DNA of 23,524 nucleotides, from IMG/VR virus record IMGVR_UViG_3300023184_000529, positions 1 through 23,524 of that record, one strand, 5' to 3'. Within the stretch, counting starts at the first letter, position 1; each line of letters begins with the position of its first letter. Made by a program: the position numbers and the translations under genes. The stretch is from a virus. The notes beneath the pieces were generated by a model. It made no database searches and was not told the origin of the DNA. It saw only the letters and a program-made list of their open reading frames with translations. This document shows, in pieces, positions 1-18,349 of the stretch.

Positions 1-712
1 CACGGACAATCTGGTAGGCGCCACCCTGCTTAGAAATTGCTGGAGCTTGCATCATCCACTGTCGCTTAATTTCTTTGCCGTCCTTATCCTTTTCCCCTGG
101 CGGAACTGGAATACCGCCAGGCAGGGTTTCAACAATCTTACCAGTAGAGTCCCAGACGCTTGCATCAAGTGTTTTAATAAAATAGGAGTGACGTAGGACA
201 AGGCTTATTTCCTTATATTTTGTGACGCCGTACATAGGATTTCTTACAGGACCACCACCACCGCCAAGGCCGCCTGTATCGGTAGGAGTGTATTTGGGCG
301 GCCATACAGCGTATCCGCCCTGATGATACCCCCCAAAGTCTTCTAATAATTTATCTATGCGTGGATGTAGCTCAATGTTCTTAGATTCAAAACCACAAAA
401 CATTTCAAAAGTGCCTTTGACCCCAAAATCAAACTGGTTGGTTGTGCCTGGTCCATTTTTGTCAGACTGGGATTCGTAGGTAACGTTTTGTTCGTAGGCG
501 GTGTCGTTAAGCCGGGTGTAAGATATATTGGTAGCAAGATACCCCTCTATGATTGGGGAGGTCTCTAGCTCTGTTACGCTAGTGACAAAGTATTTTTTAT
601 TAAGAATGGTTTTTCCGCGGCTATCCATACTCCCGCCACCGCCGAGGATTTCGATAGCGGTGCTAGCGGGTGCGCCACCACCCCCGCCACCTTGTTCAGA
701 CCCGCGAGCCAT
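1..712 (-). CDS. Tail-associated protein, partial (C-terminus beyond left edge)
   Basis: This reading frame starts at the ATG at 712, overlapping the tape-measure stop codon (TAATG), and stays open for 237 codons to the window edge. The N-terminus is glycine-rich (GGGGGGAPAS, then ILGGGGS). A region rich in beta-type and aromatic residues follows (NKKYFVTSVTELE, FDFGVKGTFEMFCGFESK), then a second glycine run near residue 160. No catalytic motif is visible. Its place directly downstream of the tape measure is where distal-tail and baseplate-hub proteins are encoded in siphoviruses, so a structural tail-tip role is inferred from position only. I do not recognise the family. Open frames on the opposite strand here look like shadows. 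Confidence 0.6.
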   Translation of the reverse strand, partial: MARGSEQGGGGGGAPASTAIEILGGGGSMDSRGKTILNKKYFVTSVTELETSPIIEGYLATNISYTRLNDTAYEQNVTYESQSDKNGPGTTNQFDFGVKGTFEMFCGFESKNIELHPRIDKLLEDFGGYHQGGYAVWPPKYTPTDTGGLGGGGGPVRNPMYGVTKYKEISLVLRHSYFIKTLDASVWDSTGKIVETLPGGIPVPPGEKDKDGKEIKRQWMMQAPAISKQGGAYQIVR

Positions 713-2118
713 TAGGAAAACACCCCAGCGTTTTTGATTAGCATATCTAATTTATCCATGATGCCTTTTAAATCGGGTGGGTTTTCTAGTTTCACGGGTT
801 GGATGGGTTTGGCCTCTGTGCTGGATGGAATGTCACGCAGTTGTGACGCCTGTGGAATTGCCCCTACTATTTTTTCGGTGGCGGCCTTGGCCCGACTAAA
901 TGATTCATTTCCAAAGCCACGGTCTTTTAACGTCTGTTCCTTAGACTTTTGTAACTCAAGGGCAAGTTTCTGGGCGTTAAAGACATCCTCGGCATTTCCA
1001 GTGGTTCTGGCCTTAGCGCTGGCGGCGGCCGCCCGTTCCTCTAGTAGCTTCATCTCTGCACCTGATCCTTGGCGCTGAGCCTGTAAATCCTCAATCTGTG
1101 GCATCAGCTCAGCCTTGCGATTGGCCATCTCGATCGCCCGGTCCAAACTGCGCTGGGCGTATTTTTCCTCAATCGCCTGCTTCATTTTCTCGGCCTCTTC
1201 TTTGCCAGAGATCTGGGACTCAATTAGTTTTAGTTCATGCCGGGCGGCCGCCTGCTCGCTTTTCTCAAAGGCTTTGTTTTCTTCCTCAATTTTTTTCTCG
1301 TCTACTACATTCTTTTCCATCCCAGCTCTCATCTTGCGCTCGTCTGCTATGGCTTTTTTCAATTTTTCTTCTCTGTCTTTAAGCGCCTTTTCAAAGCTAG
1401 GAGCCATAGTTTCCGTAAGCAGCAATGGGTTTTCTTTAAAAACAGCAGCAGCATCTAATAAAGCCCCAACGACATATGCAAAACCTTGAGATGCTTGGTT
1501 TTGAAATGTCCGCAAAGTGATGTTAGCCGCGTCCAAGCTAGAAACCATAGCGTCAGACATAACAATGCTGGATCCGCCAAGTTTTTCAAACTCTTCGCTC
1601 GTCATCCTTAGTATCGGCAGAAACCTTTGAAAGTCTTTTGCTAGAAGCTCATTAACTACCTTCAGCTCCTCTCCTGCTAAAGCCCCAGAGCTTACTGCTA
1701 TGCGTAGTTTATTAAATAACTGCTCTGGGTTAAGGCTTACAAGATCCTTACCCGTGACTCCTATTTTCTCAAATGTTTTAGCCAAATCAACGTTTCCTCC
1801 GGCGGCGTCCTGAGCGGCTTTGCCTAGCTTGCCCAGCTTGCTGCCAATCTCCTCAATCGATAAATTTGCTGTGACCCCCACGGCAGCAAGGCGCTGGATA
1901 CTTTCCGCGCTGATGTTAAAAGCATCGGACACGTCCTGCAGTTGCCCAGCTTTTGCCAGGATATTATCGATCCCAGCAACAAGGCCAGCAAGGCCACCAC
2001 CTAATCCCGCTAGGCCGAGGGCGGCTTTTCCGAAAGAGGTAATATCTTTTTCCATCCCGCGCAGGCCAGTCATGGCCGCGGCTTTGTTGAGCACTACATC
2101 GATCGCTAGTTTGGCCAT
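712..2118 (-). CDS. Tail tape measure protein (short)
   Basis: This 468-residue protein has the make-up of a tape measure. The N-terminal domain is rich in Ala, Gly and Leu with a hydrophobic stretch (ALGLAGLGGGLAGLVAGI, about residues 32-49). The motif AFNISAESIQRLAAVGVTA resembles the segment common in phage tape measures. A long charged coiled coil spans about residues 240-400 (EKALKDREEKLKKAIADE and similar). Tape measures set tail length at roughly 0.15 nm per residue, which would give a tail near 70 nm, at the short end for siphoviruses. The ATG follows the upstream stop by six bases without a clear Shine-Dalgarno site. The stop overlaps the next start (TAATG). Confidence 0.8.
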   Translation of the reverse strand: MAKLAIDVVLNKAAAMTGLRGMEKDITSFGKAALGLAGLGGGLAGLVAGIDNILAKAGQLQDVSDAFNISAESIQRLAAVGVTANLSIEEIGSKLGKLGKAAQDAAGGNVDLAKTFEKIGVTGKDLVSLNPEQLFNKLRIAVSSGALAGEELKVVNELLAKDFQRFLPILRMTSEEFEKLGGSSIVMSDAMVSSLDAANITLRTFQNQASQGFAYVVGALLDAAAVFKENPLLLTETMAPSFEKALKDREEKLKKAIADERKMRAGMEKNVVDEKKIEEENKAFEKSEQAAARHELKLIESQISGKEEAEKMKQAIEEKYAQRSLDRAIEMANRKAELMPQIEDLQAQRQGSGAEMKLLEERAAAASAKARTTGNAEDVFNAQKLALELQKSKEQTLKDRGFGNESFSRAKAATEKIVGAIPQASQLRDIPSSTEAKPIQPVKLENPPDLKGIMDKLDMLIKNAGVFS

Positions 2119-2124
2119 AAATTT

Positions 2125-2973
2125 TTAGAATCCGGCGGATTCGAGATCAGCCTGAAAGGCGTAATCCATAGCCCGCCGCATCTTTTCTGCCTGCATGTCA
2201 ATAGCCTGCTGGGCCTGCCCATCTGAGAGACAATTACTTACCCATGGTACGTGATTAACCATATTGATCCTACCGATCATAAAGTTTTCTGATTGATCGA
2301 TAACCGTCCCAGCCGCACGTTTCCCCGCGTGCCGCTTTACCCAAGCAGGAACCGCTTGCTGTTCAGTCCCTGAGATATTTGTGCCCATCCGGCCTCTAGT
2401 TCCTCCGAGCTTCATAGCACACGCGGCCCATCCGGCCTTGGCTATGCCCACCTTTTTCTGTACTTCTTTTATGTAGGCTTTGAGCTGTGACTTTTCATCT
2501 GTGATTAGTAAGGGCTCTTGCCTCTTTAACATCCTTGGTCTCTTAGGTATTGGCCTTAGAGCTTGCTTATGAAAGCTGCCGCTCATAGTTCCAATGTGCG
2601 CCTGTAGTAATCCTGATATGCGAAGGCGGACTAAAAGATTTCTGGCTAAATCAAAATCACCTTTTTTTACCATCGCATAAAACGCCCGGCCCGCTCCGAT
2701 TGCCTGCTTCTCAATCTTGTCGTAAACATCAGCAGGCGTGCGGATCACTTTTCTAATGTCGTCGGCCACCTTGCCTTCCCCTTGTGACTTTGCGCTGTCT
2801 TGCTGGCCGCCGATTGCTTTAGATCCTCCGAATGGTTGGGTCTGAAATGCAAGGTTCACCGCCATCAATCTTGCCTGTGCTCTCAATACTTCGGCTGGCG
2901 ACTTCTGGTATCTGTAAAACTTTTGTAGCGCTAACTGTAATGCGCGATCGTCTACGGTGATTTTCTCAATCAC
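2125..2973 (-). CDS. Tail-region protein of unknown function
   Basis: This is a basic 282-residue protein starting with GTG in a GTGA overlap with the gene upstream. It is rich in Lys, Arg, Gln and Ala and largely helical (ALQLALQKFYRYQKSPAEVL; AQQAIDMQAEKMRRAMDYAF near the C-terminus). The segment DDRALQLALQKFYRYQKSPA resembles the start of phage neck or tail-completion proteins that act on a protein axis, but I cannot assign a family. Its position between the putative chaperone and the tape measure places it in tail assembly. There is no signal peptide and no membrane segment. Confidence 0.65.
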   Translation of the reverse strand: MIEKITVDDRALQLALQKFYRYQKSPAEVLRAQARLMAVNLAFQTQPFGGSKAIGGQQDSAKSQGEGKVADDIRKVIRTPADVYDKIEKQAIGAGRAFYAMVKKGDFDLARNLLVRLRISGLLQAHIGTMSGSFHKQALRPIPKRPRMLKRQEPLLITDEKSQLKAYIKEVQKKVGIAKAGWAACAMKLGGTRGRMGTNISGTEQQAVPAWVKRHAGKRAAGTVIDQSENFMIGRINMVNHVPWVSNCLSDGQAQQAIDMQAEKMRRAMDYAFQADLESAGF

Positions 2974-3533
2974 TTCCCTGCCCTCCGGGCGCGGACTGCC
3001 TCGATAGCTACCAGCTCCCCTTCGCTAAGTAGATCCACGCTACTGCCTTTCTGCATCGCAAAGGCCACGTGATACCAGTACGCCTGGCCGATGGGCATGT
3101 TCCAGACGGTAGCCTCGGCCCACCCAGTAGATCCGCAGACGCTGGCCACAATGGCCAGTGACCAGGGTAAGCCCGTGGCTTCCCGGCCGCTGCTCTGTTT
3201 TCTCTCCGGCTGCCAGAGCTGGGGCAACGCATTAAAATCATCGAGGTAGGCGCGAAACTTAGTCGTCTCGATCAAGAACTCACAGCGCCAGCTTTTAAGC
3301 CAGTCCCAGAGCAGGCTTTTATTGGACAAGTCTGGTAAGCGCGGGAATACGGATCGGCAGATGTTAACCGCTAGGCGCAGATCCCTAGCACTAGGAAAAT
3401 TGCCGCCAGTAAAATAGGGAGACTGAGCCACCTCTAAGTTAAACATGTGCCAGAGGGACAGAGGGCGTAGTGGCAGGCCGAGGACGCGATGATCCTCCCT
3501 ATTTAAAAATGATTCTGCAAAGTGGCGATTCAT
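2970..3533 (-). CDS. Putative tail assembly chaperone-like protein
   Basis: This 187-residue protein begins at an ATG eight bases after the purine-rich site AAGG. The N-terminus (LGLPLRPLSLWHMFNLEVAQSPYF) has the pattern of phage proteins described as tail assembly chaperones or tail-tube-associated proteins, with leucine, tryptophan and a following SPF/SPY motif. Position also fits, since chaperones normally sit just before the tape measure. I looked for the programmed frameshift typical of lambda G/GT-type chaperones. No convincing slippery site leads into a downstream frame, and the next gene is simply coupled by a GTGA overlap. The function is therefore a positional inference. Confidence 0.5.
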   Translation of the reverse strand: MNRHFAESFLNREDHRVLGLPLRPLSLWHMFNLEVAQSPYFTGGNFPSARDLRLAVNICRSVFPRLPDLSNKSLLWDWLKSWRCEFLIETTKFRAYLDDFNALPQLWQPERKQSSGREATGLPWSLAIVASVCGSTGWAEATVWNMPIGQAYWYHVAFAMQKGSSVDLLSEGELVAIEAVRARRAGK

Positions 3534-3546
3534 CGCCGCCTTACTC

Positions 3547-3867
3547 TTACGTGGCTAGCGTGCTGTTGGGATTATAGACGCCAGTAACGCTGACTTTTAC
3601 CACATCGCCAACGGTCTTGGTAAAATTCTCTGCCGTTTTTACAAAGGTATTAGAACCAATAACAAAAGTAGCGGGAACGGATGCGCCCGAGCTAATTCCC
3701 TCCACGCTGATATTATAGCGCGGGTTATAGTAGGTGGTGACGGTAGGGGCAGTGTTTACAGTGCCGGGATCGATAACGATCTCAGTGAGCTCGCCCGTGA
3801 TGGTCATAGAAATGTATTCCTCAATGCCTGTGATGCTCGTTACTCCAGTAAATCCTTTGTATGGCAT
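3547..3867 (-). CDS. Probable small tail tube-type structural protein
   Basis: This is a 106-residue protein rich in Thr, Val, Ser and Gly with almost no long helices (SMTITGELTEIVIDPGTV, RYNISVEGISSGA, VKVSVTGVYNPNS). That is the profile of beta-sandwich tail tube or decoration proteins. The start ATG is preceded by a strong AAGGAAA site about eight bases upstream, consistent with high expression of a structural component. It follows a second small beta-rich protein with the same kind of ribosome-binding site. The two could be tail tube and a companion, or two related virion proteins. Which one builds the tube cannot be told from sequence alone. Confidence 0.5.
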   Translation of the reverse strand: MPYKGFTGVTSITGIEEYISMTITGELTEIVIDPGTVNTAPTVTTYYNPRYNISVEGISSGASVPATFVIGSNTFVKTAENFTKTVGDVVKVSVTGVYNPNSTLAT

Positions 3868-3879
3868 AAATATATTTCC

Positions 3880-4146
3880 TTAGGCGATGGTGGAGAAAGT
3901 AACGGCGGTGTTAGTCAGCCGGGCAAAGTCTGTGTTGGACAGGCGGAGCTCTTGGCGGAAAGCGGTAGCGCCAGATACGCTAGGGAAAACAAAGCTGGCA
4001 GGAAGGGTTTCTGTGACCGTCTCGACACGCTTGTACTTCTTAAAATGCTTTACGACGGTGCCATCTGTCCCAGTGATGTAGACGTACTCGTCTGCGTTAC
4101 TGATATTTTCTGAGATGCCCGCCGTTACCCCGTATGTCATTGCCAT
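3880..4146 (-). CDS. Small beta-rich virion protein
   Basis: This is an 88-residue protein (MAMTYGVTAGISENISNADE at the start) rich in Thr, Ser and Val with few charged residues. The start is supported by an AAAGGAAA ribosome-binding site about eight bases upstream, as strong as that of its downstream neighbour. The gap to the next gene is 12 bases. It sits between the tail-terminator candidate and the probable tube protein. A virion structural role is inferred from position, composition and the strong translation signal; no family is recognised. Confidence 0.45.
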   Translation of the reverse strand: MAMTYGVTAGISENISNADEYVYITGTDGTVVKHFKKYKRVETVTETLPASFVFPSVSGATAFRQELRLSNTDFARLTNTAVTFSTIA

Positions 4147-4165
4147 ATTGATTTTCCTTTAGGTG

Positions 4166-4564
4166 TCAACTGGGTTGAACAAAGGCGGTAAATTTTACAG
4201 AATCTTCCATGACCTTATCGTTAGATCCAGTGCTCTCCTCGCCCAAGTAACCGCCCATAAGGGTGGCCCCAGCTATGGTGGTCACAGCCGTGAGCTTAGT
4301 ATTCAACCAATCAAAGTTCGTACGATGAGCAGTGACGGTGCTGGCTACTTCCAAAGGCGTAAGGATGGAGCAGGTAAAAGTGACCTTGCGGGTGGTAGCT
4401 AGAGATCCTTCCACCACAGGCACGCTGGATTCTGCGTGAACTATGCAGGCGGGTAGCTGTAGATCTGAGATCCTGTGGCCTGCCTGGACGTAAAGCCCGG
4501 CGGGTTTACTGGCGGCCGTAAGGTAGGCGGCAAGGCCGTCCTCGCTAGTTAGGCGTAGGCTCAT
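4166..4564 (-). CDS. Putative tail terminator or minor tail protein
   Basis: This 132-residue protein overlaps the upstream stop by four bases (ATGA). The sequence alternates short helices and strands: SEDGLAAYLTAA at the start, then RKVTFTCSILTPLEVAST in the middle. This is the size and style of tail terminator proteins such as lambda gpU, which occupy the same position after the head-tail joining gene. It has no catalytic motif and no membrane segment. The assignment rests on gene order (head-tail joiner, terminator, tube, chaperone, tape measure), so it is moderate at best. Confidence 0.5.
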   Translation of the reverse strand: MSLRLTSEDGLAAYLTAASKPAGLYVQAGHRISDLQLPACIVHAESSVPVVEGSLATTRKVTFTCSILTPLEVASTVTAHRTNFDWLNTKLTAVTTIAGATLMGGYLGEESTGSNDKVMEDSVKFTAFVQPS

Positions 4565-4869
4565 CGCACGTCCTCAGGATCCGCTAACATGAGGGTGCTA
4601 ATTCCTTGATCCGCCTGCACCCCGGTAAGGCGCTTGGCGACCCCGCCGACGGTGACGATGCTAAGGAGGGACGGCAGGCTGACGGCGCTGGTTAGACAAA
4701 CAAACTCCGCGTTTTGCGGGTTCACAAATCCGCCCATGCCAAGCTCTGCGGTCTGCTCGCTGGGGGTGTAGACGCCTTGGACGGCTAGGCCGGAAATTGT
4801 GGCGGTGGTGGGTAAGGCGGAGATCATATCGGCCACGCCAGTAGTCATGAGTTGTTGGAGTTCGGTCAC
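4561..4869 (-). CDS. Putative head-tail joining protein
   Basis: This 102-residue protein starts with GTG after a good AAGGGG site six bases upstream. It contains a segment FVNPQNAEFVCLTSAVSLPS and a beta-rich C-terminal half ending ISTLMLADPEDVR. In size and position it matches small head-tail joining proteins (lambda gpFII place), which cap the head before the tail attaches. It is the first gene of the tail side after the modification cassette and the rightward moron gene. It is coupled to the next gene by an ATGA overlap. No sequence family is recognised with certainty. Confidence 0.5.
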   Translation of the reverse strand: MTELQQLMTTGVADMISALPTTATISGLAVQGVYTPSEQTAELGMGGFVNPQNAEFVCLTSAVSLPSLLSIVTVGGVAKRLTGVQADQGISTLMLADPEDVR

Positions 4870-4911
4870 GTCGTACCCCTTATGTCAAAACTTGCCGTCC
4901 CCCTGCTGGCC

Positions 4912-4917
4912 TATAAA
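4912..4917 (+). promoter_or_regulatory. -10-like box for the rightward MORN-like gene
   Basis: TATAAA lies nine bases before the ATG at 4926, so transcription would begin almost at the start codon. A TTGCCG at 4892-4897 could serve as -35 but is only 14 bases away. The gene has no Shine-Dalgarno sequence, which would fit a leaderless message. This is a weak, sequence-only call. Confidence 0.3.
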
Positions 4918-4925
4918 TTTAGCAG

Positions 4926-5186
4926 ATGGCTAAGTGGTTTTTTATTTTTGTTTTAATTTGTAGCGTGGCGCTGGGAGCTGATGCGGTGAGTGAAAAGCGG
5001 CTAAGCCTAGACGACGGAAAGTGGTGTCTAAAGGGAAAGCCGTTTTCTGGGGTGGCTTTTGTAGCGGAGGGCAACTGGCGAGCGGAGATGACTTACTTAG
5101 ACGGAGTGCTCGACGGGCCTGTGACAGTGATCGTGGCCAATAAACTATTCTCGCAGTTCAACTACTCCAACGGGGTAAGAAACTAA
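4926..5186 (+). CDS. Secreted MORN-like small protein (moron)
   Basis: This 86-residue protein is the only rightward gene inside the leftward structural operon. It opens with a Sec-type signal peptide (KWFFIFVLICSVALGADA, probable cleavage after ADA or LGA). The mature part reads like one to two MORN-type toxin-antitoxin/repeat units: LKGKPFSGVAFVAEGNWRAE, then YLDGVLDGPVTVIVAN and FNYSNGVRN, with the spaced G-x-F-S-G and D-G-x-L-D-G-P pattern. It probably acts in the envelope or periplasm of the lysogen or infected cell. Being reversed, single and flanked by its own promoter-like box, it fits the definition of a moron. Its stop codon overlaps the stop of the convergent methyltransferase gene. 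Confidence 0.65.
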   Translation: MAKWFFIFVLICSVALGADAVSEKRLSLDDGKWCLKGKPFSGVAFVAEGNWRAEMTYLDGVLDGPVTVIVANKLFSQFNYSNGVRN

Positions 5187-5197
5187 AGTTGCTTTAG
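5183..5197. terminator. Short hairpin at convergent gene ends
   Basis: CTAAAG and CTTTAG form a perfect 6-bp stem with a TTG loop exactly where the rightward moron and the leftward methyltransferase genes end. No U-run follows on either strand, so termination is uncertain; it may instead be a 3'-end stabiliser or a chance palindrome. Confidence 0.25.
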
Positions 5198-5746
5198 CCA
5201 GGAGTTTTCTAGTCCCTCGACTTCTCCGATGGTTTGTTGGACGGCTAGATCTACCCCGCCCCAGCCGCATCCGTAATCGTGCCCGCCGATAAGGCCGCCT
5301 GTTTTTACTTTAGGCAGCCAGGCTAAAATATCCGCCTTAACGTTTTCGTAATCGTGGGCGGCATCGATAAAGACTGAATCGAGAGATTGATCGGGAAAGA
5401 AATTAGCGCCTTTTAAGCTGGGCATGCGTAAGGAAACAAGCTGGCGGGAGACGGGTTTAACATTGTCCAGAAACTCTTGGTATAGGGTGCCGTTTTTTAT
5501 GCACTCTTCGCCTGCGTGTTCCTCGCTCCCTTCCCAAGTATCGACGGCGTAGATTTCTATCCGTGGAGATTTGTTCCATGCTTCCACAAGTAGGAAAGCT
5601 GTAGACCTGCCTTTCCAGCTTCCTACCTCGACGATTTTGCCGTCGGCCGGACAGGCCGCAACCATTCGGCGATAGACTTCGGCAAAGGTAAACCAATCCT
5701 CCCCAAACTCGTGCCCAGCGTGTAAGTGCGCTAGGTGAGTATCCAT
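5183..5746 (-). CDS. Class I SAM-dependent methyltransferase
   Basis: This 187-residue protein shows the core of a Rossmann-fold methyltransferase of the type often found in sugar and antibiotic clusters (Methyltransf_24-like). The SAM-binding loop is VEVGSWKGRST (residues 39-49). An acidic strand end (AVDTWEG, 67-73) comes next, then FIDAAHDYENVKADI (126-140), and the post-core GGHDY motif (154-158) has a likely metal or catalytic histidine. It lacks DNA-methyltransferase motifs (DPPY, NPPY or PC), so a sugar, O-methyl or protein target is more likely. It overlaps the glycosyltransferase gene upstream by 16 bases and is the last gene of the modification cassette. I infer that it methylates a sugar placed on the virion or on a host glycan. 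Confidence 0.75.
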   Translation of the reverse strand: MDTHLAHLHAGHEFGEDWFTFAEVYRRMVAACPADGKIVEVGSWKGRSTAFLLVEAWNKSPRIEIYAVDTWEGSEEHAGEECIKNGTLYQEFLDNVKPVSRQLVSLRMPSLKGANFFPDQSLDSVFIDAAHDYENVKADILAWLPKVKTGGLIGGHDYGCGWGGVDLAVQQTIGEVEGLENSWLKQL

Positions 5747-6405
5747 TTTGTTTTCTTATTTAATTCTGTAGCCACGCGGGTGGCGTGATGGTTCTCCTGG
5801 TGAAACTCTGGGCTAGGACAAAAGGCTCCGCGGGTGGCGCCGATATTCTGGATCCTACTTACCCTGGGGAAGATTTCCCCGTTGCCCATGTTTTCACGTA
5901 CACGCTGGACGCCACCATCCCAGAAAGAATTATTCCAGTTAGGTAAGAGATATTTTTCCCATGTGCTTTTCCACGTAGCCCAGCCCCAAGGGGTGAACCA
6001 GTGGCGAAAGCCTGCGACGCTGGGATCTGCATCGGCGCCGTGTTGGTTGTAGGCGGAGATGGTTAGGGTTTGCTTTGGGGCGTGTGTCCGCCCCCACTCC
6101 ATCCACCGCAGAAAGTCGGGGCTGGGCACGGTATCGTCCTCCAGATGAATATGGTAGTCGCTAACCCGAAAGCCCAGCGCCATGCAGTAGCGGATCATGG
6201 CGCCACATCCTAAGCGATCGAGCATGACCATGGCCTGCACTCCCTGCCCTTTACAAAATTCTGCGATCTCTGGAGTTTTATCGGATGGATCAAGAACGAC
6301 GACGACGTCGTACTCGCTAATCCCCTCGCACTTGGCCAGGGCTTTTAGGGTAATGGCGAAGTAGTCCGGCCTGTTGTAGCCAGAGAGTGTTAGGGTTTTG
6401 TTCAT
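5731..6405 (-). CDS. Glycosyltransferase, GT-A fold with EDD motif
   Basis: This 224-residue protein starts with TLTLSGYNRPDYFAITLKAL, the usual first strand and helix of a nucleotide-sugar transferase. VVVVLDPS (about 34-41) follows, and a DxD-equivalent EDD at 89-91 sits in HLEDDTVPSPDFLRW. This arrangement resembles the N-acetylglucosaminyltransferase I-like branch. The later HWFTPWGWATWKSTWEKY, with several tryptophans, matches the GWATW segment seen in bacterial members of these families. It is translationally coupled (ATGA) to the larger glycosyltransferase upstream and overlaps the methyltransferase downstream. Acceptor and donor sugars cannot be read from sequence. Its place in the head operon suggests the virion as substrate. 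Confidence 0.75.
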   Translation of the reverse strand: MNKTLTLSGYNRPDYFAITLKALAKCEGISEYDVVVVLDPSDKTPEIAEFCKGQGVQAMVMLDRLGCGAMIRYCMALGFRVSDYHIHLEDDTVPSPDFLRWMEWGRTHAPKQTLTISAYNQHGADADPSVAGFRHWFTPWGWATWKSTWEKYLLPNWNNSFWDGGVQRVRENMGNGEIFPRVSRIQNIGATRGAFCPSPEFHQENHHATRVATELNKKTKWILT

Positions 6406-8543
6406 CCCTTGAGCAAGGCGTAGGCCGCCAGATTTCCCCCAGTGGCTTTATTATTTTGCAGGGCATCTGCCCCCAGTCCTTCTGGACGGATGCGGATCCC
6501 GCCGGATCGCGAGAAGTCTGGCGTATTGCAAACAAGGGTGCGGACTCCGTTTTTCTGCAGTGCTTGGCTCATAACAAAATCGTCCGCAAGGAAGTGGGCA
6601 CGGCCCACCGAGTCCAGCCCGGCAAACTCCTTGGGACTCATCGCGGGCCAGAGATCTGCGCTGGGCATATCCGAGCGCCGACAGATGACGCCAGCAAAGC
6701 CCTCCAGGATCTCGGCGTGACCGAGGTGATCGGGCGCGATGGCGTAGCCTGTGGAGCCTGTCATAAAAAAGCCACAGATGCCGAGCGCCGCTTTTTGCGT
6801 TTTGTTTTGTTCGTCGGCGAGCACCTGCAACATCGTGGGACCGTAAAGGATATCGTCATCGCACCAGACGATCTGGGCGGTGGGATCCGTCTCGGCCGCC
6901 ATCGCACCGATAAACTTGGTGGCGGGGCCGTGGTCTAGGGTTCGGTTAATTTCTAATTTACCAGAATCGGCTAGGGCCTGTATCTCGGCGGGGATATCCC
7001 CAAAGCGTTCGCCTGTGCGGGCTAGTTTTTCTGGGACGGAAAGGATGATGCGATCGGCTGGGCGTGACTGGGCCAGCAAGCTCTGGATGGTGGGCATGAT
7101 CTTACCTATCCGAGTAGGTGTGGTGGTAAGGCCGACGACTATTTTGCCAGGGCGATCGACGGGATCGGGTAGTCGGACGGCTGCGGCCGGGACGGTGCCC
7201 TGGGTAATGAGATCTACGTCCCAGCGCAGTGGTGGGCAGGCGGTATCTTTATCACATTTTACGAAAAGCAGGATCCGGCCGAGAGCTGCGGCGGTGGCCT
7301 CCTCCGCATCCTTGACGATGTGGATTCGTTTGCCTGCGATCTCAGTGCCCGGATCGGTAATAAAGAGGTATTGAATGGCGGCCGGATTGTCCGAGGTATC
7401 CATAAAGAATTTCTGTAGGCGGAAAGCGTCTGCAAATGGGCCGTTGAACACGATGGTGATCTGGCCCCAGTTCCCCCGGAAGTTTTCACGTAGGCAGCGA
7501 TCCGCATCTGCGGTCTGGCCGACGGCTCGCAGGCACTGCTCGATGAGTAGCTTAGGCAGGTGGCCGTACCACTTAGCGTCCAGATTCCAGATAACACCTT
7601 GGGGACGCGGTAACGTCTCGACCATATTAAGCAGGCGGACGGCTTCGGAGAAGTTGCCCTCGTCGATAAGGATGGTGGCGAGGTGGCCGTAGGCTTCGCG
7701 ACGTGTTGGGCACCGGGCGATGCCCATGCCGAGGTACTTACGCTTTTTAACGTGATCCGCGCACATCACGCCAGCCATGCAGAAAAGCTGGTAGCGTTCC
7801 GTCTCGCCTAGATCTGGATGCTCTAGGCCGAGGAGCGTGGGGCCGATGCTCTCTTGGTAGAGGCCGCGTAGGTATCCCTCTTGGGCCAGATAATAAAGAT
7901 TCATCCCGGTATGTTCTAGGAGCGTGCCGAGGATCCGTTTATTGCGATCGCTAGAGTTTTTTTTGCAGGTGTTAGGCGCGTGAATTACTACGAGGTGATC
8001 GGCTAGGCCGACGCCCAAGCCAGGGACGGGTTTGACTCGTTCGTGGACGGCTCGTTCCCAGATGGCTGGGAGGGTTCCGTCGGGTTGGCGCCGGAAAAAT
8101 CTTTCTCTTCGATTATCCCTCATTCCACTATTTTGGACGTCATACCGGGTGACTAAAATTTCCCAGCCTTCTTTGGCTTGTTCACGGACGAGGACGGCGT
8201 CGCGGTGCAGTTTAGCCTGGCCGGGATCCAGCAGATCGTCCGCATCAAACCAGATGACGTACTTCCCTGTGGATAGGTTAAAGGCCATGTTGCGGGCAGC
8301 GGCGAAATTGTCGATATGAGGCCAATCAGCATGCTCGGGTGCATTCTGATACTCGCCCCAGACTAAAGCCTCGCCAGCGGCCTCCTGTGCGCAAATACGC
8401 ACACTCTGCGCATCATTTTTACCGCAAGCGGAGACCACGACGACTTCGTCCCATAGACCTGCGCAGGACTTAATTAAACGGGCGACGAGTTCCCCTTCGT
8501 TGGGGCCGACGATGAGTGCTAAAGAAATAAGGGGGGTTTTCAT
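6402..8543 (-). CDS. Large two-domain glycosyltransferase with central helical repeats
   Basis: This is a 713-residue protein with two transferase modules. The N-terminal one (about 1-230) is a family-2 glycosyltransferase: it has LALIVGPNEGELV at the start, DNFAAARN around 78-85 and WFDADD around 98-103 as the metal-binding DxD. The centre (about 235-350) looks like helical TPR-type repeats (HLATILIDEGNFSEAVRLLNM). The C-terminal module begins near residue 470 (KIVVGLTTTPTRIGKIMPTI) and carries VWCDDDILYGP near 560 as a second DxD-like motif. It starts 66 bases after the capsid gene, past a strong hairpin, without a recognisable Shine-Dalgarno site, which suggests lower expression than the capsid. 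It probably makes a multi-sugar structure with its two partners. Confidence 0.8.
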   Translation of the reverse strand: MKTPLISLALIVGPNEGELVARLIKSCAGLWDEVVVVSACGKNDAQSVRICAQEAAGEALVWGEYQNAPEHADWPHIDNFAAARNMAFNLSTGKYVIWFDADDLLDPGQAKLHRDAVLVREQAKEGWEILVTRYDVQNSGMRDNRRERFFRRQPDGTLPAIWERAVHERVKPVPGLGVGLADHLVVIHAPNTCKKNSSDRNKRILGTLLEHTGMNLYYLAQEGYLRGLYQESIGPTLLGLEHPDLGETERYQLFCMAGVMCADHVKKRKYLGMGIARCPTRREAYGHLATILIDEGNFSEAVRLLNMVETLPRPQGVIWNLDAKWYGHLPKLLIEQCLRAVGQTADADRCLRENFRGNWGQITIVFNGPFADAFRLQKFFMDTSDNPAAIQYLFITDPGTEIAGKRIHIVKDAEEATAAALGRILLFVKCDKDTACPPLRWDVDLITQGTVPAAAVRLPDPVDRPGKIVVGLTTTPTRIGKIMPTIQSLLAQSRPADRIILSVPEKLARTGERFGDIPAEIQALADSGKLEINRTLDHGPATKFIGAMAAETDPTAQIVWCDDDILYGPTMLQVLADEQNKTQKAALGICGFFMTGSTGYAIAPDHLGHAEILEGFAGVICRRSDMPSADLWPAMSPKEFAGLDSVGRAHFLADDFVMSQALQKNGVRTLVCNTPDFSRSGGIRIRPEGLGADALQNNKATGGNLAAYALLKG

Positions 8544-12870: not shown

Positions 12871-13120
12871 TGCCTCCAGGGCAAGACGTAACGCCACCGG
12901 GTCTTTCGCCGCTGTGATCCAAAGGGAAAATATGAGGGCCCGCTCCACAAGGCGAAGAGGTGGTGTCAATCGATTGGCGGAGGGAAAGGCCGATGGCTTC
13001 GGCGCTGTTTAATATAGGGCGAATAAAGACGAGTTCCGTCCTATTACATCCCATCATATAAGAACGGATTTTACCTGTCAGGCTAAGGGAAAGTTTGTAG
13101 GTATCTTCTAGGTTATTCAT
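12818..13120 (-). CDS. Small protein coupled to large terminase, possibly frameshifted
   Basis: This 100-residue frame starts in an ATGA overlap with the large terminase. The first 50 residues look natural (EDTYKLSLSLTGKIRSYMMG, then NSAEAIGLSLRQSI). The second half (SGERPGGVTSCPGGNGQQSD and a HHHDQRGPSHG tail) looks like out-of-frame translation. Meanwhile the +1 frame over the same bases reads well (ALIFSLWITAAKDPVALRLA) and continues into the gpW-like protein. Either a base is missing or extra near 12900-12970, or two genes overlap, or a ribosomal +1 shift joins them into one protein of about 160 residues. Function unknown. Confidence 0.4.
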   Translation of the reverse strand: MNNLEDTYKLSLSLTGKIRSYMMGCNRTELVFIRPILNSAEAIGLSLRQSIDTTSSPCGAGPHIFPLDHSGERPGGVTSCPGGNGQQSDHHHDQRGPSHG

Positions 13121-14925
13121 ACGGGTACGGGCTCCTGTATTGGTGCTGGGGTAGGTTCTTTTATGGTCATGCTTTCAAGTAAAATAAGCTGCATCTTTTC
13201 GCAGTCGCCCAAGTGGTTGCCGCCGACTACTTCCCACTGGAGTTCTTTGTGGCCAAATTTCATGCGGCGCTCGACAAGACGTTCGGCGGTGAGCTGGGCG
13301 ATGTAGTCGCGCCCGGTATTCCGAGGGAGCCACCAATCTCCACCGTCGCGGTCTTTGATTTTGTTTAGATAGAGACGTTCTTTCCAGAGGTTGTCGTCGT
13401 ACTGGACCATCTTGACCAGGCGGCCGCGGTGCTCGATCGTCTGCTTCACTACACTGGATTTCATTCCGACGGTGACTCCCCTGCCCTTGCTCGCCCAAAA
13501 TCTGTTTCCACTATTCAAAACAAATTCGTAGACGCCACCTGTCCGGCGGGCCGCGTAGCCGGAGTCGACTAGGCCACCCATGCACTTCATCGTTTTGCCT
13601 GGGCAATCTTTGACCGTGTACTCCTCTTGGAATTTTGCAGAGATCGCGTCCCAACCCACACACGTACCGTAATCGATCATGGCCGTCCATCGCTTGCCTG
13701 CGGACATTCCAGAGGCGCGGATCAAATACCAGAGTTCGGTTTGCTGTACGTCTACCGTCATGAACATTGAGTCAGGTTCCCGCGGGATCTCGCCCATAAT
13801 GTATTCTGGTGACGCTTGAATCACGTCCTCTACGTTGCTCGACTTTACGGTGGTAGCAGACGGAGACCACGGACGGGCTAGGTAAGAGTTCACAAAATAG
13901 TGCAGACCGCGGGGGCTGTCTTTGTCTTGGAGAAAACGTTGGCTGAGTTCACCCCATTTCTTAAATGGACTATAGAGTGAGTTCAAATGGTAGCTTCGTC
14001 GGCCAGGCTCGCCCAAGGCGGTGGGCTTCCAATGGCCAGCGGTGAGCATAGCGGCCTTATGTTCGTGTCCGATCAGCTCCCTGCACCCTGGACACTCGTA
14101 TCGCGTAGACTCAGCGACACGCTCGTAATTCCAAGAGGCCGAATCTTCATCAAACGCGGCCTCGTCGTACTTAATCCCCTCCCACCCCAATTCTAATTGA
14201 TGCTTACAAAACGGGCATGGAACCATGTAGACCCTTTTGTCGCCACGCTCGTACTCGGTCCAAATGTTCACACCTCGATCAAGGGTCGGGGTCGATGCCA
14301 TGACGAAAAGCCAATCGGCAAAGGATTCCATGCGGGCGCCGACGAGCTGGAGGGGCGGAGCTTCTTTGTCGCCCCAGTCTGGAAACTTGTCGATCTCATC
14401 GGCAAAGACAAGACCAGCAGATCGACTGGAAAGATTTGCATCAGATCCAGCACCCACCCACCAGACGGTAGCGTCCTTAAATCTTTGTTCGTCCAATTTA
14501 ATTAGATCGCGATCGGCGGGCATCTTTTCCGTTAAGCACGGATTACACTTAACCAGCTCCAGCCATTTCTCCTGGCTGATACTCCGCGCCAATTTTAAAG
14601 AAGGCAGGACCATCATCGATGCCGTCGGGCGAGCGGCCACCCGGTGCGCAAGCATCACCTGAAGGGCCGTGGACTTGCCGGACTGCACGGCAAAACATAA
14701 AACCAACTCATGAACGCGAGGATCCGTGGAGGCATCGATTACCTCCCGCAGATAGGGCATGCGATCTAAACTAAACTTACCAGGCTGAACTTTTGAGTAG
14801 CGATCGCTGAACTGCAGATTTGATTCCGCCCATCCTGATACCGACCCAAAGCCGGGACGCATGTGCTTCGCACGCGCCTCTTGTTCTGCTTGATGATTAT
14901 TGACGGCCATAAAATCATGTTCCAT
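13117..14925 (-). CDS. Terminase large subunit, GpA family
   Basis: This is a 602-residue packaging motor of the lambda GpA type. The ATPase has a Walker A-like AVQSGKS (about 80-87) and Walker B LVFADEID (about 172-179) followed by a coupling MASTPT motif (about 210). A zinc-ribbon-like pair CPFC (about 238) and CPGC (about 278) comes next, as in many GpA proteins. The nuclease part begins near 385 with MTVDVQ, followed by LVDSGYAARRT with further acidic residues. It cuts and translocates DNA with the small subunit. It overlaps the small terminase gene by about 11 bases; an internal start at MAVNNHQ is possible. A GpA-type enzyme usually means cos packaging. Confidence 0.92.
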   Translation of the reverse strand: MEHDFMAVNNHQAEQEARAKHMRPGFGSVSGWAESNLQFSDRYSKVQPGKFSLDRMPYLREVIDASTDPRVHELVLCFAVQSGKSTALQVMLAHRVAARPTASMMVLPSLKLARSISQEKWLELVKCNPCLTEKMPADRDLIKLDEQRFKDATVWWVGAGSDANLSSRSAGLVFADEIDKFPDWGDKEAPPLQLVGARMESFADWLFVMASTPTLDRGVNIWTEYERGDKRVYMVPCPFCKHQLELGWEGIKYDEAAFDEDSASWNYERVAESTRYECPGCRELIGHEHKAAMLTAGHWKPTALGEPGRRSYHLNSLYSPFKKWGELSQRFLQDKDSPRGLHYFVNSYLARPWSPSATTVKSSNVEDVIQASPEYIMGEIPREPDSMFMTVDVQQTELWYLIRASGMSAGKRWTAMIDYGTCVGWDAISAKFQEEYTVKDCPGKTMKCMGGLVDSGYAARRTGGVYEFVLNSGNRFWASKGRGVTVGMKSSVVKQTIEHRGRLVKMVQYDDNLWKERLYLNKIKDRDGGDWWLPRNTGRDYIAQLTAERLVERRMKFGHKELQWEVVGGNHLGDCEKMQLILLESMTIKEPTPAPIQEPVPV

Positions 14926-15517
14926 GAATCATTCGAGCCATCAGCCGGGTGCAATACTCCGTAATCCATACGTTCACCTCTTCAGTCTTTAACATTTCTA
15001 AACGAGGCGGAGCCGTCCGCATCAAGTCATCCAGTCCGGCCCGCATTTCTCTAAACACCCGATCCATCGCTTCAACATGCGTCGATCGTGGCATCACAAA
15101 CCCAGCGGCCGTCCTAGCACGCTCGTAGTCGTTGTGCCGCTTGATCGCGTTGTCCTGTAGTTTTGGTAAAACCGAAAAAGCACCACGCATCCGCATCGGA
15201 TCCTTTGCCTCTGATGCTTCAATCAATTCTTTCACGCATGCCCAGACAAAACGGGCCGCCGCGTCGGCGTGCCTACGGTACTCAGCCACACCGGGATCCT
15301 CACCTGGTTGGATCGGTTCCATCGATGGGCGATCGGTATGCGTTGCGGAATGAGCGGACACGGCCGCGGCCAACTGCACCCGAGGCGCTCGCTGGCCGTT
15401 GACCGATCTCCATGCTGTAGCCTCTGCTAGATTATTAAGAGGCATCCCCTTAGCCACCCACTTGGCTACCGCTTGCCGTGAGCATCCCCACTCCCTTGCT
15501 ATATCAGTGGCCGTCAT
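14915..15517 (-). CDS. Terminase small subunit
   Basis: This protein has 200 residues from the ATG at 15517, or 207 from a TTG at 15538. The N-terminus MTATDIAREWGCSRQAVAKW is a winged helix-turn-helix start very like the DNA-binding domain of small terminases such as lambda Nu1, so I favour this ATG although no Shine-Dalgarno site precedes it; the TTG has an AGG nearby. The middle (about 70-180) is helical and charged (YRRHADAAARFVWACVKELI), fitting oligomerisation. It recognises the packaging site, and the heptamer array begins only about 130 bases upstream. Confidence 0.8.
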   Translation of the reverse strand: MTATDIAREWGCSRQAVAKWVAKGMPLNNLAEATAWRSVNGQRAPRVQLAAAVSAHSATHTDRPSMEPIQPGEDPGVAEYRRHADAAARFVWACVKELIEASEAKDPMRMRGAFSVLPKLQDNAIKRHNDYERARTAAGFVMPRSTHVEAMDRVFREMRAGLDDLMRTAPPRLEMLKTEEVNVWITEYCTRLMARMIHGT

Positions 15518-15568
15518 AACATGGACGCAACCTGTCAACCTTACCTAGCAGTTAAGTTCCTTACGCGG

Positions 15569-15574: not shown

Positions 15575-15600
15575 CGGGGGTCGTTTCCACCGCAGAGTTT

Positions 15601-15648
15601 CTACTCAAGGAGACTCCTTGTGTAGACCGACCACCTTCTCTTGAGTAG
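15601..15648. promoter_or_regulatory. Nested inverted repeats, putative operator
   Basis: CTACTCAAG (15601-15609) is inverted as CTTGAGTAG (15640-15648). Nested at the left arm is a perfect 15-base palindrome, CAAGGAG-A-CTCCTTG (15606-15620). The centre is about 25 bases upstream of the TATAAT. This is a typical arrangement for binding of a dimeric regulator controlling late genes; the regulator itself is not identified. Confidence 0.5.
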
Positions 15649-15649
15649 C

Positions 15650-15904
15650 CACCATGTGCCGACCATGTGTCCGACCATGTAGGTGTGTAAGAGATACAAG
15701 ATAAGGAAGATACAGATGGAGTTACATGGTCAACATGGTCACTTGGGTATTTAAACACGCGCGCGCGGGTGCGCACGCGCACGCGAGGGTCATTCGCACC
15801 TTTATAGCAACCTACCATGGCGACCATGCGCAACCTCATGAAACATCTTGAGAGGGAGCGGGATCGGACTCTGCATGGTCAGACGCATGGTGGTCTACAT
15901 GGTC
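15650..15904. repeat. Mirrored array of ten CATGGTC-type heptamers (origin or packaging site candidate)
   Basis: GACCATG-type copies on the plus strand are at 15650 (CACCATG), 15661, 15673, 15813 (TACCATG) and 15822. CATGGTC-type copies are at 15725, 15734, 15874, 15886 (CATGGTG) and 15898. Spacings are 11 and 12, 9, 9, 12 and 12. Mirror pairs share a centre at 15776.5 (the outermost pair is off by one base). The centre is an alternating purine-pyrimidine tract, 15755-15767 and 15769-15785, prone to Z-form or cruciform structure. The right three copies lie inside the end of the primase gene, where they encode the repeated Asp-His pairs. A replication origin or a cosB-like small-terminase binding site are the main readings. 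I see no convincing gene in 15539-15835. Confidence 0.65.
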
Positions 15905-18349
15905 TGGATAGATCCTTGTGATGACTATCTCTCGGCTATGGCCCTCGCCTTTAATCGTTAGTATCCGATCACCGAACTGCCTGCCATCAAACCTAGCCAA
16001 GATCTTGCCAAAGGATGATCGCTCCTTACGCACCACGTCTTCCCTTTCGGGTATGTCCTCATCCAATACCCAGTGGAATAATCCCTTTTCCCTAGCATCA
16101 GCCATCAGAGTAGCTGCCCTGAATGAAGTAGAGGCTCCTGCAAAGAACTGTGTACCCACCAGCTTACTCATGTCGTGCAGGGTATCGTCAGTGCTTACCG
16201 TGGCCCGCTGGCATGGATGCACCCCCGTCACCATTTCAATAATCCCACCGATTTCAGCAGACCACCGCGGAAAGGAGCTGTTGGTCTGACTACCGCGTGG
16301 CCGCCCACTATTGTCCCAGTGCTTAGCCACCGCCCACATCGCCGCTAAGATAGTTCCTCGCGCCCTTAAAATATCCTCCTCACTAACATCCTTCTTGAAC
16401 TTTCTGTCCTCAATAAACGCCTCCTTAACATGTAACGCTAGGTGAAGCGTCCGCCTTCTCATGTCTGGATTTACCCTGGCACTGTTCGACGTGATAAAGA
16501 TCAGCGTGTTCTTATCCACCACAAAACTCTTCGACAATCCCAACAGCCTCCCCTTCCAAGTAGAAGCAGTGATGAACGCCTCCAACGGACTGCTCTTAAT
16601 TTCACCGCGCCAATTATCAAACACCAGGTAACGATCCCCAGCGATCGCGCACGCACTTAATAATTTAGCCAACTCATCTTGCCCTTTCGAGTCCGGCGGC
16701 GCCGTGATCTGCATTGGACCGAACACCGGGCACACCGCATATCTGCACAGCAACGTCTTGCCTGCACCTTCACTGTTAGCGCTAAAGATAAACGCCGGAC
16801 GCGGCTCCCGCACCGCCAGCAACAGATCTAAAAACGGAGCAAACATCGCGCCCAACGCCACCGCCTTACCTCTTGCATGCTCGGACGGTTCCTCTCCAAA
16901 AGGAAACTCGCTAATCAGTTCCAACAGATACGCCTGGGCATCTTCAAAAGCCATATCCCTGGCGAAGTCCTGCGACTCCTGCACGAGCACCTGACTCTCC
17001 TCATCATAACCAGTCGAAAGCAGATCCAGAGATCCATCCTTACGGAACACAGGCAAAGGCACCTCTGAATACCCACGGATGGGCCTTAGATGCCTACAAA
17101 ACTGCGACGATTCCAGAACACCTGCCGACGCCTTGTCGCTTAGCGATGCGTTCTCCTCACCACCCTGCGTCCGCTTGTAAGGCACCACATGAAGCTCCAG
17201 CCATGTGTGAAACTTCTCGCTGGGCATAGTTTCCAGCCGTCCGGCCGCCGTCACATACACCGGGATCCCGTCCCTCTGATACATCTTATCTTTAAGGGCC
17301 AACCCCAGCGCATCCGCCGTTTCACTCAATAGCTTTCCATTACCAGGCAACTCCACCCGCGTCCGTCCGTCCTTATCATCAGCCGCCTTCACCACCTCCG
17401 CCACGTCCCACTCATACCGATCTACCGCATCGTCTGAAGTCTCCATGTACGCGTCACGCACCTTACGGCCCAGCTCAGCCATCGTTTCACCATCACCATA
17501 CTTGGCCACGTACAAAGACAGATCCGCCTTCTCCGGCCGCCCCTCCGGCCAGATCTTAGACCAATCCAACACCCTCACCCGCCCGCGCTTCGATACCAAG
17601 GCCCTTGCTACCAACTCCGCATGAGACTCACCTTGGGCATCACTATCTTGAAAAACGTTTACCACACGCCCCGCTAGAGCAGCCGTGTAGCTGTCACGCC
17701 ACTTACCTGCACCCATCGGCACCGTCGTCGCCAGCCAGCCCATTTCCATCGCCAGATCCGCATCCTTCTCACCTTCACAAAACCAGACAGGCTCATCCGG
17801 CCTAGCGATTAACTCAGGCAGATTATAGAGCACAGGCTCCGTGCCCTTTAACGTCCACAACCACCACCCACCAAAATAATCTTTCGAGGCCGCCTTCTCA
17901 CCCACCCGATCCCCCTCCTTAGCAGGCCGCCGTTGCGAGAACCCCTTTGGCTCATACCGTAGCGTCTGATGAGCCAGCGTCCCGTCTGCGTTTAGGTAGG
18001 AATACGTCTTTACCAGATTACGCTTCGGCTTCGCACCAGGGGCCGCCTTCGGCCGGGTCGATCGCGCCTCACTCGTATCCCCTGCAAACTCGCGCAGAAT
18101 CTTAATCGCCTCGCCCTGACTCACACCCCGCACCTTTTCGATGAGAGTCACCTGATCGCCGCCATCACCAGTGCCAAAATCCTTCCAGCGTAAACCGTCT
18201 TTGCCCTCGTAGATATTGAACGATGGATTCTCATCCCCCGCTCTTATCGGAGAGCACATCTTTCCCGTGCCAGAAGGGAAATTTACAATACCCAGCTTCG
18301 CCGCTGTATCCGCCAGGGACACAGTGGCTTTTAATTCTAGGATGGTCAC
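15836..18349 (-). CDS. Phage primase-helicase
   Basis: This is an 837-residue replication protein starting with GTG in a GTGA overlap. Residues 1-90 resemble the DnaG-type N-terminal domain (CSPIRAGDENPSF, 32-44; WKDFGTGDGGD) but keep only one of the usual zinc ligands. A TOPRIM domain at about 185-255 has FCEGEKDADLA (catalytic Glu) and FQDSDAQGE (Asp-x-Asp). From about 440 onward comes a helicase-type ATPase: Walker A EGAGKT near 525, Walker B YLVFDNW near 570, and FITSNSARVNPDMRRR near 630 with probable sensor and arginine finger. It makes primers and unwinds DNA at the phage origin. The last 20 residues (PDHVDHHASDHAESDP) are Asp-His-rich because the heptamer array runs into the gene. Confidence 0.88.
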   Translation of the reverse strand: MTILELKATVSLADTAAKLGIVNFPSGTGKMCSPIRAGDENPSFNIYEGKDGLRWKDFGTGDGGDQVTLIEKVRGVSQGEAIKILREFAGDTSEARSTRPKAAPGAKPKRNLVKTYSYLNADGTLAHQTLRYEPKGFSQRRPAKEGDRVGEKAASKDYFGGWWLWTLKGTEPVLYNLPELIARPDEPVWFCEGEKDADLAMEMGWLATTVPMGAGKWRDSYTAALAGRVVNVFQDSDAQGESHAELVARALVSKRGRVRVLDWSKIWPEGRPEKADLSLYVAKYGDGETMAELGRKVRDAYMETSDDAVDRYEWDVAEVVKAADDKDGRTRVELPGNGKLLSETADALGLALKDKMYQRDGIPVYVTAAGRLETMPSEKFHTWLELHVVPYKRTQGGEENASLSDKASAGVLESSQFCRHLRPIRGYSEVPLPVFRKDGSLDLLSTGYDEESQVLVQESQDFARDMAFEDAQAYLLELISEFPFGEEPSEHARGKAVALGAMFAPFLDLLLAVREPRPAFIFSANSEGAGKTLLCRYAVCPVFGPMQITAPPDSKGQDELAKLLSACAIAGDRYLVFDNWRGEIKSSPLEAFITASTWKGRLLGLSKSFVVDKNTLIFITSNSARVNPDMRRRTLHLALHVKEAFIEDRKFKKDVSEEDILRARGTILAAMWAVAKHWDNSGRPRGSQTNSSFPRWSAEIGGIIEMVTGVHPCQRATVSTDDTLHDMSKLVGTQFFAGASTSFRAATLMADAREKGLFHWVLDEDIPEREDVVRKERSSFGKILARFDGRQFGDRILTIKGEGHSREIVITRIYPDHVDHHASDHAESDPAPSQDVS

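Follow-up and report, generated by a model that had tools for sequence, protein, structure and literature searches.

Between the primase and small terminase (TerS) genes of a virus deposited in IMG/VR as IMGVR_UViG_3300023184_000529, ten short repeats are arranged in a mirror-symmetric order. This arrangement poses an obvious question: which of the two neighbouring proteins uses the repeats? The original prediction left two answers open, a replication origin for the primase-helicase and a cosB-like packaging site for the small terminase. We analysed the stretch at its full length of 23,524 nt (positions 1 to 23,524 of the record, hereafter the window) together with related and more distant phages, and an origin of the primase-helicase is the most likely of these readings.

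Sites, symmetry and centre of the array

A recount of the window confirmed ten copies of CATGGTC or its complement at 15650-15904, seven of which are exact and three of which carry one change (those starting at 15650, 15813 and 15886; Table 1). The mirror order was also borne out: the start of the left copy plus the end of the right copy equals 31554 for the outermost pair and 31553 for the other four pairs. When ten non-overlapping sites were placed at random 136,920 times across this span, the five sums never came within 1 bp of each other, and this test leaves aside a further factor of 1/32 for orientation. Five sites lie on either side of the array centre, forming two iteron sets around a central region, and elsewhere in the window no more than 4 sites occur within 249 bp. 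The spacings given earlier (12/11 outside and 9 inside) need a small correction, the full start-to-start series being 11, 12; 52; 9; 79; 9; 52; 12, 12. The sequence between the copies had been regarded as free of conservation, and most of it has indeed diverged, except that GGGAGCGGG is near-invariant on the primase side and a GTAAG-like word is partly conserved on the cos side.

Table 1 Features of the array and its neighbourhood, in window coordinates
Feature	Position	Strand	Remarks
Large terminase subunit (TerL)	13117..14925	-	lambda gpA type
Small terminase subunit (TerS)	14915..15538	-	HTH, phrog_57
Conserved cosN-TerS element	15533..15563	-	TAAGGAACTTAA ... TAAGGTTGACA; kept in L125 too
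Putative cosN	15579..15590	-	12-nt 5' overhang GTGGAAACGACC; relatives' contig termini at the aligned base; fused to the array, not part of it
AAGGAGACTCCTT	15607..15619		occupies the place of the box AAGGAATCTTTT kept by relatives between array and cosN
Heptamer 1	15650..15656	-	CATGGTG, 1 change; cos-side outer triplet; pair with 15898-15904 sums to 31554
Heptamer 2	15661..15667	-	exact; outer triplet; paired with 15886-15892
Heptamer 3	15673..15679	-	exact; inner triplet member; 52 bp to doublet, spacing conserved
Heptamer 4	15725..15731	+	exact; inner doublet, 9-bp period
Heptamer 5	15734..15740	+	exact; inner doublet
Central spacer between doublets	15741..15812		72 bp, 40% AT; 71-80 bp in relatives
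Alternating CG/CA core	15755..15785		runs 15769-15785 (17 bp) and 15755-15767 (13 bp)
Heptamer 6	15813..15819	-	CATGGTA, 1 change; inner doublet
Heptamer 7	15822..15828	-	exact; inner doublet
Primase-helicase gene	15836..18349	-	837 aa; primase half and D5/SF3-like helicase half; proposed initiator
Heptamer 8	15874..15880	+	exact; primase-side triplet, within helicase 3' end
Heptamer 9	15886..15892	+	CATGGTG, 1 change; primase-side triplet
Heptamer 10	15898..15904	+	exact; primase-side triplet
Helicase C-terminal winged-helix domain	15911..16195	-	proposed heptamer reader

Three copies do fall within the end of the primase gene, where they coincide with a run of Asp and His codons (15874-15904, DHVDHHASDH). 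The coding overlap itself is incidental, because the gene stops before the array in the more distant relatives G020, G021 and G025. A coding origin of the heptamers was ruled out on the same evidence, since these relatives keep the array beyond the gene end. An inverted duplication of one half is not favoured: the spacers of the two halves are unrelated, yet the sites hold register.

The alternating centre and its palindrome were both found, although the palindrome GTGCGCAC (15769-15776) is centred 4 bp to the left of the array centre. Among the alternating purine-pyrimidine runs of the entire window, those of 17 bp and 13 bp in this core rank first and second in length. The 72-bp centre is not AT-rich, its AT content being 40% compared with 47% for the window, and the centres of relatives range from 31 to 42%.

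Conservation of the array and its association with helicase genes

Is this geometry peculiar to the window? A TerL search of IMG/VR yielded 37 loci, and the check suggested by the original prediction, a search for the same heptamer layout beside the primase and terminase genes of related phages, showed it to be present and conserved. Every relative spanning the region carries the array at the same place, with the exception of the chimeric L002 (IMGVR_UViG_3300020042_011790), which was rejected as an array-less counter-example because its assembly is chimeric, TerL being duplicated in inverted orientation. The geometry is shared by at least a dozen related contigs, in several of which the outermost pair is 1 base off, and it is base-exact in relatives whose TerL is 60-86% identical and whose spacers have diverged. 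Within each half-array the layout is fixed (triplet, 52, doublet of period 9), and the central spacer measures 71-72 bp in the close group of the window and 80 bp in other relatives. For one relative, G006, five of six pairs are mirrored, a result reached by 0 of 2000 random placements. A gene-blind pattern scan extended the array to phages with TerL only 30-46% identical, in which the mirrored core is kept, with single or clustered sites ~52 bp from 9-bp doublets, and the outer clusters are rearranged.

Among the pattern matches in genome collections, only L104 and L125 proved to be true-looking arrays on inspection, and the remaining matches (L117 aside) mostly had the look of chance or tandem repeats. 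L104 (Betaproteobacteria MAG RFRK01000103.1), whose contig ends inside the array, encodes a helicase 58% identical to that of the window; it belongs to the phage family of the window and was binned into a bacterial genome, and its host assignment is uncertain.

The array overlaps the end of the helicase gene (15836), that is, it lies immediately 3' of the proposed initiator. A PDB sequence search with the helicase family of the window gave no match, so a fold comparison was required. The AlphaFold2 model of the helicase half, which is only rough given its pLDDT of 67.7, best matched the SaPI5 primase-helicase (Z 12.5), vaccinia (poxvirus) D5, SCCmec Cch and PriRep1 (Foldseek, VIA); on this moderate-confidence model, the cognate helicase is of the D5, self-loading type. 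Its sequence likeness to the VapE families is weak (hhalign probability 31%, E 5e-4). The C-terminal 100 residues are confidently modelled as a winged helix (pLDDT 81) with the order helix-strand-helix-helix-strand-strand, and this domain alone, compared with solved structures, returned general winged-helix matches only (Z < 8) and no specific relative. In relatives at 58% identity (L010, L012, L024, L028 and similar ones), the primase and helicase halves are two genes, which are fused in the window.

Two sets of comparisons show that the array goes with the helicase gene rather than with the terminase. In G021 and G022, the helicase is 42-43% identical to that of the window, its C-terminal domain 40-45% and TerL 29%, and the ACATGGT sites are kept, whereas TerS gives no usable BLASTP match to the window TerS. 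This case is strong but not absolute, because TerS of these phages still contains an HTH-like stretch. The other set comprises phages in which arrays of the same plan, built from words unlike that of the window, lie 3' of VapE-type or related helicase genes: G019 as well as Marinobacter PS3 and Pseudomonas U5/Haddon, the last two with the words GGTCACCCC and TGTCCCAC. In G019, which has no matching terminase, the array lies 65 bp past the VapE helicase stop, and the terminase genes follow from ~2.6 kb further; U5 has lambda-like packaging genes, and in U5, PS3 and G019 alike TerS is separated from the array by well over 1 kb. With the word of each phage picked by copy number and not by symmetry, 5/6 pairs are mirrored in G019 (equalled by a fraction of 0.0005 of random placements), 4/6 in PS3 (0.003) and 4/6 in U5 (0.008). 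In this unsupervised run, the window was represented by an overlapping word that masked its symmetry; its exact test is that of the 136,920 placements.

The plan has its limits. No repeat excess and no visible array were found in the examined 3' flank of the D5/VapE helicase gene in Persinger, Arya, BV741P4, Moulinsart and the satellite Javan154. The APSE-7, Staphylococcus, Paenibacillus, Acutalibacteraceae, SW6 and SMP phages have 3'-flank repeats, none of them significantly mirrored, and those of SW6 and SMP are no more numerous than in shuffles. The GC skew, which is confounded by gene strand, turns at the array in G021, within ~2 kb of it in PS3 and U5, and elsewhere in G019.

The alternating tract accompanies the array robustly. 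In the window, G011, G019, PS3 and U5, the alternating run inside the array exceeds all others in the sequence, and in G021 it is joint longest (6/6 tested). In 27 of 30 Pseudomonas VapE prophage loci surveyed (Acinetobacter yielded too few genes), the helicase gene is followed by such a tract of 11-24 bp, located at +485 to +528 from the stop; within the gene itself, the longest run averages 8.9 bp. Flexibility, a B-Z transition or a protein site may be the role of the core. In the open-access literature searched, no description of an alternating core or of an iteron origin in a Pseudomonas phage was found. The Pseudomonas prophages L161, L162, L173 and L181, which carry VapE, have alternating tracts of 20-24 bp, and their flanking repeats were not picked out by the 7-mer test.

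The cohesive end site, a satellite-like element and the rival readings

Another question is how the array relates to DNA packaging. Upstream of TerS, one aligned base, 49-50 nt from the GGTTGACA block (50 at the equivalent position of the window), forms the start of seven contigs that represent three or four species, and the complete contig G011 (31,510 bp) begins with GTGGCGACGACT and has the same 12 nt at its end. Such a repetition is expected from filled-in 12-nt 5' overhangs, and on this ground a putative cosN was placed at 15579-15590, where these assemblies point to 12-nt cohesive ends beside TerS. The site would be separated from the array by 60 bp in the window and by about 51-65 bp in relatives, and the two are fused in every region-spanning member of the phage family. 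A scan with the cosN-box pattern gave no further records beyond the known relatives. Between array and cosN, the window contains a near-perfect 13-nt inverted repeat with a 1-nt loop at 15600-15626 (TCTACTCAAGGAG/CTCCTTGTGTAGA), which it shares with L009, other relatives carrying AAGGAATCTTTT there. Elsewhere in the window, three successive genes among the virion genes (5183-8543) were likened, by eye, to a methyltransferase, a glycosyltransferase and a larger glycosyltransferase-like protein.

A further view of the segment is offered by L125 (CAJBOM010000046.1, positions 1-5038), a satellite-like element on a 5-kb contig of a Verrucomicrobia MAG. Its genes include an integrase (3720-4823), an HTH gene, an O-like replication initiator (1613-2455) and tRNA-Ala (4906-4978), and the contig contains no D5 helicase and no TerL/terminase or capsid genes. 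No relatives of its initiator were found in viral contigs. L125 combines a cosN (715-726, GTTGGAACGACC, 11/12 like the contig end of L004), the cosN-TerS element and a complete heptamer array (769-1031) with pair sums of 1800, 1800, 1800, 1800 and 1801, counting degenerate copies at 942 and 950; its core is an AT version of the alternating tract (TATATATATACATGTG), again its longest run. L125 is possibly a small phage satellite that has taken the origin-cos segment of its helper. If the array is an origin, L125 would borrow both replication and packaging from the helper; if it is packaging-related, packaging alone. The element fits the theft of origin and cos, yet it fits a packaging role as well.

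The cosB proposal is sensible inasmuch as a cos site really adjoins the array. An enlarged cosB/cosQ could be bound by TerS, with the half-arrays and the intervening bend positioning terminase at cosN; TerS contains an HTH, its recognition region is nearly identical in the window, G006 and G020, and L125 carries cosN and array without the helicase, as cos-type satellites carry the cos of their helper. However, given the inferred cosN, the packaged chromosome carries the array just inside its right (primase) end. This is the cosQ side, the far side of cosN from the terminase, rather than the interval between cosN and the TerS gene. The lambda cos (cosQ-cosN-cosB) shares the 12-nt 5' overhang inferred here and the lambda-type TerL and portal, but has cosB between cosN and TerS; lambda nu1 starts at 191, and TerS starts about 40-60 bp from cosN in the family of the window. 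The conserved element at 15533-15563 is a better candidate for cosB or a TerS site than the array, a TerS promoter being the alternative. Since the array-cosN distance also varies by ~14 bp, the same architecture occurs more than 1 kb from TerS in U5, PS3 and G019, and the word is kept where TerS is unrecognisable, we consider a packaging site unlikely.

A dual use, in which the complex on an origin array would also mark the chromosome end and so couple completion of replication to cosN cutting, would account for the constant fusion with cosN and for the joint retention of both in L125. Gene order explains the fusion more simply, the primase gene being last and the terminase first, and the arrays of VapE type lie away from the terminase genes; a coupling of this kind appears very unlikely. 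Mirrored operator clusters are common in phages, and a further reading would be a repressor/operator cluster or a centromere-like partition array with no tie to initiation. We regard this as the most improbable reading, because the array follows the helicase gene in phages with different other genes, its words vary by lineage, and the published origins of related helicases occupy the same position.

A probable origin of the primase-helicase

Thus, the array is probably the replication origin of a cos-type phage, used by the adjacent D5/SaPI-type primase-helicase. What argues for an origin rather than a terminase site is that the same architecture stands beside VapE helicases far from unrelated or distant terminases and that the word and the winged helix are kept where TerS is unrecognisable. 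The first of the two answers in the original prediction is supported by gene association, fold and literature; helicase loading, melting and bidirectional replication are proposed by analogy with SaPI, Cch2 and T-antigen. The primase-helicase, a self-loading AAA+ protein, would bind the CATGGT heptamers through its C-terminal winged helix, and one ring would nucleate on each half-array (triplet, 45 bp, 9-bp doublet). The mirror register would set two rings head-to-head around the central 72 bp, which they would melt before departing bidirectionally, and the alternating core, flexible and Z-prone, would stand in for the usual AT-rich melting region. Origin and cosN, 60 bp apart, would constitute a compact module. 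Several observations count against an origin: L125 keeps cosN and array with its own O-like initiator and without a D5 helicase, the centre is 40% AT, unlike those of PICI origins, some VapE/D5 phages lack a repeat excess or have repeats that are not significantly mirrored, and the sequences of the window helicase and the VapE families resemble each other weakly.

How does this site compare with known systems? In Streptococcus thermophilus phages of the Sfi21 type, the origin is an AT-rich, non-coding repeat region after the primase/helicase genes; phage SW6 has AGTTACC repeats there, which do not exceed shuffles and are not significantly mirrored. Alpha of satellite phage P4 is a primase-helicase initiator with its own cognate repeats (ori/crr). 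Alpha and its site are mentioned in PMC6092414. PICI origins consist of two iteron sets immediately 3' of rep with an AT-rich centre (PMC6092414), and the C-terminal domain of SaPI Rep recognises iterons directly downstream of its own gene, the protein apparently acting as two hexamers, and Cch2 does the same (PMC7581432). The origins of SaPIbov1, SaPI1 and EcCICFT073 have in common with the window the position 3' of the initiator-helicase gene and the two sets of short iterons flanking a centre (PMC6092414, PMC7581432), and the model of the window initiator matches the SaPI5 primase-helicase. The window array differs in belonging to a full-size cos phage, in its base-exact mirror order, in its CG/CA centre and in its fusion to cosN. 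For SCCmec Cch2, PMC7581432 describes a putative origin at which the helicase binds repeats downstream of its own gene via its C-terminal domain; these are three AAGTG iterons in a 23-bp direct repeat, and the description drawn on here mentions neither a mirror array nor an alternating core. The SV40 T-antigen origin shares with the proposed model two opposed helicase rings on one origin (PMC9894130), but initiators of the T-antigen type bind via their N-terminal domain (PMC7581432), and the site sequence is unrelated. The earlier statement that no known described phage site has such a geometry holds in detail, although the general plan is that of PICI/SaPI origins; the window array is set apart by the strict mirror order, the alternating core that is not AT-rich and the cosN fusion.

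A wider proposal can be made tentatively, and we consider it possible rather than probable: the origins of D5/VapE phage initiators might form a widespread mirror-symmetric type whose conserved alternating core, be it supercoil-sensitive, Z-prone or flexible, replaces the AT-rich melting region; in the family of the window, this origin would be fused to cosN in a module that a satellite has taken whole. The array also suggests where origins may be sought in many temperate phages: directly beyond the 3' end of the D5/VapE helicase gene, as mirrored iterons around the longest alternating tract of the genome. Ordinary phages would then share an origin plan that has been called unique to phage-inducible islands, and the strict mirror geometry would provide a template for the possible positioning of two helicase rings. 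Finally, the fusion of origin and cos would offer a satellite a simple route to borrow both the replication and the packaging of its helper.
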